A stretch of 64,000 bases of DNA, taken from Bifidobacterium scardovii JCM 12489 = DSM 13734 (GTDB lineage Bacteria; Actinomycetota; Actinomycetes; Actinomycetales; Bifidobacteriaceae). The translations under genes and the position numbers were made by a program. The notes below the pieces were generated by a model that saw only the letters and a list, made by a program, of their open reading frames with translations, did no database searches and was not told the DNA's origin. This document shows, in pieces, positions 21,878 through 55,191 of this stretch. Where the stretch lies: the NCBI RefSeq assembly GCF_001042635.1, contig NZ_AP012331.1:2728001-2792000 (forward strand), in the 5' to 3' direction. Each line of letters starts with the position of its first letter. Positions within the stretch are counted from its first letter, which is position 1.

Positions 21878-22438
21878 CTATTTCGGCCAGCCCTTGGGTG
21901 TGTGTTCCAGCGACCAGACGCCCAGCTTGTGCGAGAAGCTGTTCTGCCACTTGGCTTCCAGCTGTTCCGGAGTCAGCCGGTTCTCGGCCGTTTTGAGCCG
22001 GTTCATCGCATTGGTGTGCGTATCGTCGAGCAGCCATTTGCGGATCAGGAAGTTCCAGACCATCACCACGGCGGTGGCGATCAGCTTGCCAACGTTCGTG
22101 CGCAGCAGGTATTCGGCGTGCTGCGACACATAGGCGTCATGGTTCATGCCGTAGGTGGAGATCCAGATGATCGCGTCGTTCATGAGCAGGCCGACCACCG
22201 CCCCGGCCACGAAGATGACGATCTCCATCCAACGGGCCATGTCTTCGCGATGCTTGAACACGAACTTCATGCTCGCCAGATAGTTGAAGATCAGGGAGAT
22301 GATGAAGGAGATGGTGGCGGCGGCCACATTGTGCATGTGGAACAGCCCGACCAGGAGGTTGAGGATACCCCAGTCGATGACAAAGGCAATCACACCGACG
22401 ATGCCGAATTTCATAAGCTGCGCAATCAGTTTCTTCAC
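21878..22438 (-). CDS. GtrA-family membrane protein
   Basis: A 186-residue protein with four TM helices (MKFGIVGVIAFVIDWGILNL, AATISFIISLIFNYLASM, IVIFVAGAVVGLLMNDAIIW, LIATAVVMVWNFLIRKWL) and a charged C-terminal tail. GtrA proteins are thought to flip or help transfer lipid-linked sugars for cell-surface glycosylation. The conserved N-terminus points to the GTG at 22438 (VKKLIAQLMKFG), although the ribosome-binding site is weak; the ATG at LMKFG is an alternative. It is followed downstream by the 68-bp palindrome. Confidence 0.82.
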   Translation of the reverse strand: MKKLIAQLMKFGIVGVIAFVIDWGILNLLVGLFHMHNVAAATISFIISLIFNYLASMKFVFKHREDMARWMEIVIFVAGAVVGLLMNDAIIWISTYGMNHDAYVSQHAEYLLRTNVGKLIATAVVMVWNFLIRKWLLDDTHTNAMNRLKTAENRLTPEQLEAKWQNSFSHKLGVWSLEHTPKGWPK

Positions 22439-22699
22439 GGAAACCCATTTAACACTGCATGGTTGACCCACGGGGCGGTATGACGCCGATTTGCACCGTT
22501 CCCTTGCACGCCGCGCCGGGCGTTGGGATACCGGGGAGCGCGCAGCACCTTTGCATTTTTGGGATGGTGAGGGGCGGCGGGAAAAGCGGAAAAGAGCGAG
22601 AAGCAGCAAGAAGCGGCAAGAATGATTGTGAGAATGATTACCTCCTCGTCCCCTCACCGAGGCATTCCGCTTAGCCCATACCAGATGCGCCGCACTGAA

Positions 22700-23335
22700 C
22701 TCACATCAGCGGGGTATATCTTCTACCCTGCAGAAGCAACAACCTGCTCAGAGGCACGTCAACGGGGCAACACAACGATCTTGCAGAAGTAATACCCCCG
22801 CAAAACCAAGAAACCGAAACGAATCCTCCACCCCATAGCACGAATGCCACGCTCAGCACCACCTCAGTGCGGCAAAGCAACCACCCTGCAGAAGCAATAC
22901 CCCGCCGAGCTACGCAAGCGAAACGAATCCCCTACCCCGCAGAAGACATGCCCCACCCAGCAACACCTCAGCAAAGCCCGACCACTACCCCGTAGTACAA
23001 CCGACCCGCTCAGCAGCATAGCGAGGCAGAACCACTACTCTGCGGAAGCAATGCCCCGCTGAACCTAATAGCCGAAAAGAATCCCCTACCCCGTAGAAGG
23101 CATGCCCCGCATAGCAACGGCCCCGCGAAGCCCGCCTATTACTCCGTAGTACAAGCGACCCCGCTCAAGCGTGTCAACGACCCGAAACAACGAGCCTGTC
23201 GAAGGAATACTCCGCTCAGAAGCAGCTCAGCGAGGCAAAACCACTACTCCGTAGAAGCAATACCCCGGCAAAACCACAAAACCGAAGCGAATCCTCTACC
23301 CCATAGCACGAAAGCCCCGCTCAGCACCACCCGCC
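22700..23335. repeat. Degenerate array of about 12 units, 52-bp period
   Basis: A core of the type CTACYCCGTAGAAGCAATACC recurs with its GTAGAAG-like part at 22729, 22782, 22835, 22887, 22938, 22991, 23041, 23092, 23145, 23197, 23250 and 23303. The steps are 50-53 bp. Many cores contain the dyad CTAC-NNN-GTAG. Units 3 and 12 are embedded in near-identical 60-bp segments (from 22801 and 23270). The period is not a multiple of three and the units vary too much for CRISPR, so this is non-coding repeat DNA of unknown function. It fills the space between the GtrA start and the stop of the gene at 23340. Confidence 0.85.
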
Positions 23336-23339
23336 GCCG

Positions 23340-24677
23340 CTACCGCTTCAACAGATAGTCGAGCTGCTCCATGACCAGCGGATGCGGCGGACGCTTGGTC
23401 CCGGCCGAATCCACGATCAGAGGCCGCAACGTCTCCTGCACGAACGGAATCGCCTGGTCGAACGCCACGCCGCCGGGCAAGGTCATAGGAGACACGATGG
23501 CCGCCGTACCGTCCTTGGACGGGTTCAGCAGCACGACCGGCCGCACCTGCAGCATCGGGAATTCCTCGGCAAGCGCGGAAGCGACATCCCCCGGTTCGGC
23601 GAGATCGCGGTAGATCCGCTCCGCCTTGTCCTGTCCACGCCGCTTGAGCACCAGCGAGTCCACCTCCTGAGCTCCGGCCGGCTCGCCCGTGAACAGATGA
23701 TCCGCATCGGCCTGGTACCCATGGGTGTCGAACACCCATAGCACGCCGTCCAGCAGCAGCACGCCGTCCGCGGTGACGTTCGGCATGCCGGGCACCGGCA
23801 GCGACCACCACGAATAGCCGCGATTCAGGACATTGCCGTGCACCAGCAGCCGCGCCAAGGTCTTGTCGGACGGGACGCCACGGACATGATCATTGTGTTC
23901 CAGCATCGTCTGCGTCAGGGAGAAAAGGTCGTACTCGCCCGGATCGATCGACTCGCGCCACGGCACGATCTCGGAATACCGATTCCCGTTATCGCCGGAT
24001 GCGTCATATCCAGACACGTATTCCGACGGATTCACCGGGCCGGCGCCCGTCGCGTTCGCGGTCTGTGGCAGCGGATTGTCATAATCCGACCCGACCGGAC
24101 TGTCGCAGTCGGCACCCTCCGCGGTACGCATCGAAGAACCGTCGGATCGCACCGTCACCGGACCGTCGAAGACGATCGGCTTGGAGGCCGGTTCGGGTTT
24201 CGGCGCCGTGGAGCGATCGAGGGGAACGCTCGTATCAGCGGGACGATTCCCGGCAGGCGCACTTTTCCCAACACCTACGCCACTTGCACCGAAAGCGCCC
24301 GGCTCCTGCGCGCCGCCACGCGCGCCGCGCTGCCCGTCCCGACGCCCACCAGCGTTATCACCGGCATATGCGCCGGCTGAGGCACCATTCTGCGAGCCAT
24401 ACGGCATGCGCGCAGCGCCGCTCGCGGCACCGCTCGGCGCCCCACTCGCCGCACCGGACTCGTCATCCGGCGTCCACGGCATCCCCGACGTGCCATCGGC
24501 ACCGTTCCGTGCTTTGTTCCGCACATTGCCATTCGCGCTCTTGGGCGCCTTCGCCGGCGCCGACTTGGCCACGAACACGCCGATCGCAACGGCGATGATG
24601 AACGCCAGCAATCCGTTGAAGTTCAACATCCCCAGCACTACTTCGGCGATGATGAACGCAATGATTCCCCGAACCAT
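23340..24677 (-). CDS. Membrane-anchored protein with long disordered linker, last gene of the SPFH operon
   Basis: A 445-residue protein. Two closely spaced hydrophobic helices at residues 3-37 (GIIAFIIAEVVLGML, LLAFIIAVAIGVFVA) are followed by a low-complexity Gly/Ala/Ser/Pro linker of about 180 residues. The C-terminal globular domain runs from about 245 to 445 (YDLFSLTQTMLEHNDHVRG, GVLLLDGVLWVFDTHGYQ, VVLLNPSKDG). The C-terminal part faintly recalls a nuclease-related NERD-type fold, but I cannot confirm catalytic residues. It follows the zinc-ribbon gene by 53 bp and is followed by the 52-bp array. Confidence 0.7.
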   Translation of the reverse strand: MVRGIIAFIIAEVVLGMLNFNGLLAFIIAVAIGVFVAKSAPAKAPKSANGNVRNKARNGADGTSGMPWTPDDESGAASGAPSGAASGAARMPYGSQNGASAGAYAGDNAGGRRDGQRGARGGAQEPGAFGASGVGVGKSAPAGNRPADTSVPLDRSTAPKPEPASKPIVFDGPVTVRSDGSSMRTAEGADCDSPVGSDYDNPLPQTANATGAGPVNPSEYVSGYDASGDNGNRYSEIVPWRESIDPGEYDLFSLTQTMLEHNDHVRGVPSDKTLARLLVHGNVLNRGYSWWSLPVPGMPNVTADGVLLLDGVLWVFDTHGYQADADHLFTGEPAGAQEVDSLVLKRRGQDKAERIYRDLAEPGDVASALAEEFPMLQVRPVVLLNPSKDGTAAIVSPMTLPGGVAFDQAIPFVQETLRPLIVDSAGTKRPPHPLVMEQLDYLLKR

Positions 24678-54974: not shown

Positions 54975-55076
54975 GAAAAAGCAAAGAAAAACCTCCACGC
55001 ACCCGTCAGAGGCCACTTACCCTTGCTGCATTCCTGCCCTGGGGGAGTTGGGTGACATAGCGCCGCGTGGAGGCTC
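54975..55076 (-). ncRNA. ffs: Signal recognition particle RNA (bacterial 4.5S), with terminator
   Basis: The minus strand reads GCCTCCACGCGGCGCTATGT, then a segment containing the conserved SRP apical loop GGGCAGGAATGCAGCAAGGG, and closes with GGGTGCGTGGAGGT, which pairs with the 5' end. TTTTTCTTTGCTTTTT follows as terminator. The RNA body spans about 54989-55076. It works with Ffh in targeting membrane proteins. Confidence 0.97.
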
Positions 55077-55191
55077 ATATCAGTGTACATCATGCCCGGA
55101 CACCGGTGCGTCGCGCGCGGCGCACCGGTGAGTCGGCACCGTCGAATCAGCGGACCGGCGATTCAGTGGACCGGCGGTTCGGTACCGGCGG

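Follow-up and report, generated by a model that had tools for sequence, protein, structure and literature searches.

A degenerate 52-bp noncoding satellite family with replication-polar arrays in Bifidobacterium scardovii

Introduction

Between two minus-strand genes of the Bifidobacterium scardovii JCM 12489T chromosome (3,158,347 bp; PMC4392160) lies a gap in which related sequence returns at steps close to 52 bp while its letters vary, and the question is what such an array is and what would keep its spacing constant. The gap is part of the window, which here means the whole 64,000-nucleotide stretch of DNA that was analyzed (contig positions 2,728,001 to 2,792,000). On one side, a gtrA-like gene (PF04138 by Pfam; 21878..22447, minus strand) turns its 5′ end toward the array, which is upstream of it; on the other, the stop codon of a gene for a 445-aa protein with no Pfam match (23340..24677, minus strand) abuts the array. 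Among 112 genomes of the genus, this protein was detected in its own only, and the named genome collection gave no match either. Because no match to this neighbor was detected, the window locus could not be followed across species, and other loci were compared instead.

The earlier note on this DNA knew of no described bifidobacterial element of this sort. Searches of an open-access library, which misses most subscription papers, likewise listed none, but the kind of element has been described in other bacteria (PMC8161180). In the accessible part of that paper, Subirana and Messeguer (2021) report noncoding 52-nt satellites of constant length, variable sequence, and enigmatic function, in which short sequences and their reverse are often found within one unit. 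The repeats are stated there to be restricted to Firmicutes and to lack sequence conservation, and protein polymerization on the DNA, or small RNAs, is suggested as an explanation (PMC8161180, accessible part). The accessible main text has no mention of orientation, the leading strand, the origin of replication, or "palindrom," and the accessible part of a 2019 survey by the same authors (PMC6749651) does not name Bifidobacterium.

Results

A degenerate array of 12 units in the window

The array spans positions 22705..23332 of the window, has no assigned strand, and consists of 12 units of 50 to 53 bp; its plus strand is C/A-rich (GC skew, −0.315; AT skew, +0.469) and is the lagging-sense strand. 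The 12 cores named in the earlier note do carry related sequence, at steps of 53, 53, 52, 51, 53, 50, 51, 53, 52, 53, and 53 bp, all but one of the 11 (10/11) being within 1 bp of 52. A position-weight chain trained on the window units recovered the same 12 on the plus strand, beginning with unit 1 (22720..22772), which has the core CTACCCTGCAG, and continuing with units 2 (22773..22824), 3 (22825..22877), 4 (22878..22928), 5 (22929..22981), 6 (22982..23031), 7 (23032..23082), 8 (23083..23135), 9 (23136..23187), 10 (23188..23240), and 11 (23241..23292) to unit 12 (23293..23332), which is shortened close to the next gene's stop codon. The chain added a weak 13th unit (score, 4.0) at 22668..22719, also on the plus strand, that contains TCAGCGGGGTA.

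The period of approximately 52 bp was borne out by autocorrelation of positions 22700 to 23335 against a background of 300 dinucleotide shuffles, with peaks at lags 105 (z = 7.3), 53 (z = 6.9), 259 (z = 6.9), 154 (z = 6.2), and 209 (z = 5.3). The smeared autocorrelation over the same positions reached a z of 6.5 at lag 51, compared to a shuffle maximum of 4.25. The array also has a higher-order period of 104 to 105 bp, which the earlier note missed; Tandem Repeats Finder by itself detected only 1.8 copies of 104 bp. As had been proposed, the array is probably noncoding. The open reading frames of at least 60 aa that touch it are one of 72 aa (22844-23062, plus strand) and one at 23296-23811 (minus strand) that falls mostly within the next gene, and the longest stop-free stretch within the array, 113 codons, is on the T-poor plus strand.

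Segments of the array are copies of one another (22727-22863 and 23195-23331 with 80% identity; 22857-23007 and 23011-23161 with 75%), so part of its regularity comes from later copying. These duplications favor the main rival to phased protein binding, namely, turnover of a selfish or neutral satellite, in which in-register slippage and unequal exchange would make the constant length a by-product of copying and the strand bias would reflect leading/lagging mutation. We regard this as a tentative but quite possible account; it is opposed by the mean identity of neighboring units, which at 47% (187 pairs) is unlike that of fresh satellite copies. A CRISPR array was rejected on the same figure, its repeats being expected to be near-identical, and the CRISPR reported for this strain is at 2,307,006-2,308,804 (PMC4392160), outside the window array.

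Two alternating dyads

The CTAC-NNN-GTAG dyad by which the array had been described is present but weaker than claimed, being perfect in 3 of the 12 units (unit 6 at 22985, unit 8 at 23086, and unit 11 at 23244), with 29 of 48 dyad positions paired. A second dyad, CGCCCCGC ... AGCGRRGCA, lies half a period away and had been missed. Of 14 registers tested, one brings its arms into complementarity (0.389 Watson-Crick, compared to 0.17 to 0.31 in the 13 others), and two dyads therefore alternate at intervals of ∼26 bp. On the C/A-rich strand, the unit consensus is roughly CTA-N-CC-NN-TAG-AAG-NNN-CRCCCCGC ... CTCAGCGRRGCA-NANC. Column conservation is uneven among 66 units picked by profile, with 10 columns at 90% or above and others near random. 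The part that recurs in other species is CCCCGC with AGCGRRGCAAAACC, and the second dyad differs in its letters there (by eye, CCAG-TNA-CTGG in locus L039 and a CTCG type in L036 and L040).

Extragenic palindromes of the BIME/REP type are intergenic, alternate, and lie mostly 3′ of genes. The arrays are likewise intergenic, with alternating palindromes and a location mostly 3′ of genes, but they differ in their strict 52-bp phase. The GTAG/CTAC ends next to a GC palindrome in B. scardovii would suit GTAG-tagged REP elements mobilized by a RAYT (an IS200-type Y1 transposase). However, no Y1_Tnp domain (PF01797) was detected in the B. scardovii genome at an E value of 0.001, whereas 5 of 14 control genomes were positive, and the dyad letters vary by species, the REP-type tag being GTAG-like in B. 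scardovii and spelled otherwise in other species. Mobilization of this kind is hardly credible.

Individual palindromes were also observed. At about L062:1908-1967 (genome G005), an in-array unit is a near-perfect palindrome with ∼23-bp arms in which CCACGC/GCGTGG replaces CCCCGC/GCGGGG. In B. scardovii (G000), GCGTGGTCTC...GAGACCACGC forms a 68-bp perfect palindrome around the unit center GCCCCGCTGAG/CTCAGCGGGGC at about L028:2329-2396 (72.83-72.90 kb), 3′ of a glycogen-phosphorylase-like gene; a T-run comes after it, and it looks like a terminator that has the array motif in common. A perfect palindrome of ∼50 bp with the same center, CTAT/ATAG ends, and no T-run is located at about L027:2075-2130 (3083.57-3083.63 kb), between genes called convergent. 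Such single perfect palindromes with the array center resemble terminators and may be the seed of array growth. A second repeated element, CTAGTATCCTGCGTCG...TGGCTCCCCTCTTGGAGG, ends three B. scardovii arrays (L010, L012, and L014, at about 2557.9, 2204.7, and 930.6 kb, respectively).

RNA structure

A structured 3′ RNA, one of the roles that had been proposed, is not supported in general. The C-rich strand has no consensus fold, RNAalifold found no pair in the 66 units, and arm pairing in the main register was at a z of −0.3 relative to shuffled arms. A scan of all column pairs in these units had its top scores (z of about 4) out of register, and these may reflect relatedness. Rfam gave no match to the array; the sole gathering-level match in the window is a bacterial small SRP RNA at 54983-55079 (minus strand).

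The arrays could nevertheless be transcribed clusters of 3′ hairpins, acting as repeated terminators or mRNA-stabilizing stem-loops in the manner of REP/BIME elements, and some pairing signals are consistent with this. In register, pairing at core positions 7-11 occurs in 28 of 66 units (18.4 expected from shuffles) and at positions 61-65 in 34 of 66 (24.9 expected; z = 2.8 for each). When arm pairing within units was compared to that between units in 11 genomes (Watson-Crick pairs), it was higher in G010 (z = 3.4), G024 (z = 2.1), and, weakly, B. scardovii itself (0.489 versus 0.478, z = 2.0; with G-U pairs on the leading strand, z = 2.9), and G005 was at a z of 1.8. There was no gain in G047 (z = 1.0) or in G003, G068, G015, and G028 (z ≤ 0.5), G021 was at −1.5, and G032 showed a loss (z = −3.5). 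Next to one gene common to G024 and G015, the last unit showed by eye a single apparent compensatory change, from A-T to G-C, and perfect palindromes with the array center do occur singly (L028, with its T-run, and L027). Transcription of the B. coagulans 52-nt repeats (PMC8625621, accessible part) also fits hairpin clusters; the missing consensus fold, the main-register result, and the genomes with no gain or a loss count against them, and overall, we consider them unlikely. In 5 of 6 arrays, folding was better than that of shuffles for the G-rich strand (z = −3.8 to −5.7) and the C-rich strand (z = −2.2 to −3.5) alike, as expected from the palindromic layout.

A dispersed family in the B. 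scardovii genome

Weak BLAST matches pointed to other intergenic arrays with the same grammar. By pattern scan, profile, and sequence-only model, the B. scardovii genome holds at least about 18 arrays, near 73, 93, 136, 204, 324, 429, 484, 676, 720, 794, 844, 929, 931, 1100, 2204, 2558, 2709, and 2751 kb, as well as the single palindrome at 3084 kb. The pattern scan yielded 30 hits, corresponding to 26 sites (4 counted on both strands), compared to 6 with the reversed pattern; the hits at 1165.8, 1535.8, and 1832.6 kb were taken as chance, and the first of these gave no profile hit. The profile detects phased units in the loci examined. The sequence-only model, built from the 66 units, gave at least 172 genome matches at an E value of 10 or better, with 150 of 1,285 candidates scored. 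Several array families of one length but different sequences are present within this genome. The window array belongs, in degenerate form, to this dispersed family of 52-bp noncoding satellites. Its location upstream of gtrA would fit a local regulator array that serves this gene only, but arrays are dispersed, with at least about 18 at other genes, which makes such a regulator very improbable.

Spacing is kept while letters change

The proposal that phase is under constraint gained support, because spacing is preserved across loci and species while the letters vary. A total of 45 loci (20 genomes) were searched, of which 7 had a single hit and 38 (16 genomes) gave steps. Of 223 steps, 209 deviated from a multiple of 52 by at most 1 bp and 215 by at most 2 bp, a count that leaves out one step of more than 230 bp, hits weaker than an E value of 3, and minority-strand hits and that may miss badly shifted units, although units were detected by profile and not forced into phase. 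Phase was held within 1 bp in 116 of the 122 neighboring pairs with less than 50% identity. The family has a unit step of 51 to 53 bp with a dimer of 104 to 105 bp; 52 and 104 bp correspond to 5 and 10 helical turns at 10.4 bp per turn.

In the relatives compared, a set that left out G061-labeled pairs, array letters diverge beyond those of the neighboring genes, and the steps within each array are 51 to 53 bp or about 104 bp. Between G032 and G021, the neighboring gene has 94.1% nucleotide identity; for the array region, which takes in a little conserved flank, a 434-column alignment gives 56.9% and contains 5 indel events. Among G024, G074, and G015, the genes are 81.5 to 85.3% identical, compared to 63 to 70% for the array regions, with 6 to 8 indel events and 61 to 106 gap columns per pair. 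The gene and array identities are 85.4% versus 60.3% for L061/L063, 88.6% versus 80.6% for L037/L063, and 100% versus 98.3% for L046/L047, where one unit only is compared. Selfish satellite turnover is favored by the strong divergence of an orthologous array, whose best matches fall in shifted registers, and by the B. coagulans strain comparison, in which arrays are conserved in part only and array length is seldom conserved (PMC8161180, accessible part).

Orientation and chromosomal position

The polar motif A-GCGRRGC-A marks the lagging strand of the arrays. In the window, it occurs on the plus strand at 23229..23241 (G000:C1:2751229-2751241) as AGCGAGGCAAAAC, the form common to other species. 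Exact copies of AGCGRRGCA in 18 B. scardovii loci are split 43 to 4 between the lagging and leading strands and, once the palindromic GG form is set aside, 31 to 1, a polarity that speaks against selfish satellite turnover. Each of the 17 loci with a clear strand has its C-rich strand in the lagging sense, this strand being minus between 0 and 1.58 Mb and plus beyond. The weakest of these calls are 119 versus 89 (L066) and 68 versus 45 (L028), and the locus at 3083.6 kb, which has no clear strand (35 versus 34), is outside the 17. The orientation rule was set on 6 arrays by similarity to the window array, and 10 later loci (L020, L021, L023, L024, L026, and L065-L069) serve as tests. A DnaA domain is located at 514-1011 in the B. 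scardovii genome, the only one in which dnaA was located; for G015, G020, G028, and G061, the contig start was assumed to be near the origin. In G015, a single-contig genome, 24 of the 26 copies of AGCGRRGCAAAAC have the expected orientation, and the reversed control gave 0.

Flanking genes explain this polarity poorly. According to a rough ORF caller, 18 of the 19 B. scardovii places are 3′ of at least one gene, which suits 3′ hairpin clusters; the exception, at 928.6 kb, is an array between divergent genes. The array at 676 kb follows replication against both of its called neighbors, which are on the opposite strand, and these two arrays count against the hairpin clusters. Genes were called convergent at 7 of 18 loci (one via a doubtful ORF).

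On the lagging strand, the arrays have a GC skew of −0.242 and an AT skew of +0.299, compared to −0.117 and +0.069 in other noncoding DNA at the loci and to an estimated replication part at 4-fold sites of about −0.07 and +0.20; an earlier control confined to the window had a weaker background skew. The control skews have the sign of the arrays, so mutation bias may account for part of the array skew. The same-sign skew of the other noncoding DNA is in keeping with a selfish satellite, whereas the excess of the arrays over the noncoding and 4-fold controls is not. The strand bias may be partly or even purely mutational; the arrays exceed both controls in strength.

None of the 19 B. scardovii loci is farther from the origin than 0.70 of the half-chromosome (P = 0.001; KS, 0.017), a limit that, like that for G015, was chosen after the data were seen. 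In G015, 10 loci are within 0.50 of the half-chromosome (P = 0.001; KS, 0.008), with the omission of a single isolated motif (885 kb; unexpected strand), inclusion of which would give an estimated P for the maximum of ∼0.07. The terminus third of the B. scardovii chromosome has no array among the matches listed.

Spread beyond the species

Under strict filters, and with 46 candidates scored per genome, at least 20 of 112 genomes of the genus, B. scardovii included, match at an E value of 0.001. A looser pattern matched 8 of 394 genomes of the class, of which only B. scardovii was array-like by eye, the other 7 matches being judged chance or short-period repeats. A scan of the named genomes for two copies of AGCGRRGCAAA at 50 to 54 bp found 65 stretches, compared to ∼2 expected (an estimate for even base composition); some of those with a period of 51 or 54 bp may be coding, and many are without a clear period. 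Bifidobacterium species (reuteri, colobi, cebidarum, and miconis) account for 10 of the 65. Regular motif arrays were also found in Natronobacillus, Neobacillus, Cytobacillus, Sporosarcina, Cohnella, a Lachnospiraceae MAG, and Bacteroides ihuae; that is, the motif recurs at steps of about 52 bp in some Bacillota and Bacteroidota. The reversed-motif control gave 0 in 10 of 10 genomes, all picked for having matched. The occurrence of one unit length in unrelated phyla is a further point against a selfish satellite. The array of Cohnella mopanensis (L098:300-1100) has a 51-bp period and inverts its orientation midway.

Discussion

Judged by their sequence, the Bifidobacterium arrays match the 52-nt satellite kind and extend its range past Firmicutes. 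Like the Bacillus/Firmicutes satellites in the accessible part of PMC8161180, they are noncoding and have a unit of 51 to 53 nt, a length that is not a multiple of three, with several sequence families per genome; CGCCCCGC and AGCGRRGCA correspond to the short shared sequence and its reverse. Unlike those satellites, the arrays of Bifidobacterium, a member of the Actinomycetota, are far more degenerate, replication-polar, and origin-side. In addition, A-GCGRRGC-A is common to Bifidobacterium and some Bacillota and Bacteroidota arrays, and this recurring motif, on the same sequence evidence, qualifies the published claim that 52-nt repeats lack sequence conservation (PMC8161180, accessible part).

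The reading that we favor, with a probability of roughly 0.4, is that the arrays are phased protein-binding arrays of oriented sites, linked to replication or the nucleoid, in which spacing, a few letters, and direction would be selected. Each unit would present one oriented site to a putative DNA-binding protein, which would assemble along one face of the helix, with a unit every 5 turns (52 bp) and a dimer every 10 (104 bp). With one oriented site per unit on one face, the spacing and a few letters would be under selection and the remainder would be free. The orientation and position of the arrays suggest a role tied to the replication fork or the origin-side nucleoid. Counted against phased binding are the divergence of the arrays beyond that of their neighbors, which a functionless satellite could also show, and the inversion of the Cohnella motif within L098.

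A broader proposal, which we consider doubtful, is a replication-oriented system that spans phyla: with A-GCGRRGC-A as the marks of a 52-bp ruler, a putative DNA-binding factor or fork-linked process might act in Bifidobacterium, Bacillota, and Bacteroidota alike, and phased origin-side arrays of rapidly changing sequence might organize the nucleoid or affect the fork. The GCGRRGC inside the polar motif recalls the d(GCGAAGC) DNA mini-hairpin (PMC4686876, accessible part). The GCGAAGC and GCGGAGC forms, which fit a stable GNA loop, make up 17 of the 43 lagging-strand copies in B. scardovii, but the GCGAGGC and GCGGGGC forms, the other 26, do not fit the loop of d(GCGAAGC), and the link to the mini-hairpin is therefore only a lead.

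The accessible part of the 2021 paper (PMC8161180) does not mention three starting points for work on these satellites: their replication polarity, the lack of detected arrays toward the terminus, and a motif that recurs. Degenerate 52-nt satellites are present in another phylum, nearly invisible to a repeat finder, and in them spacing outlives sequence. If G015 is B. breve, as we presume, this species may carry such arrays, and their function would be testable there.
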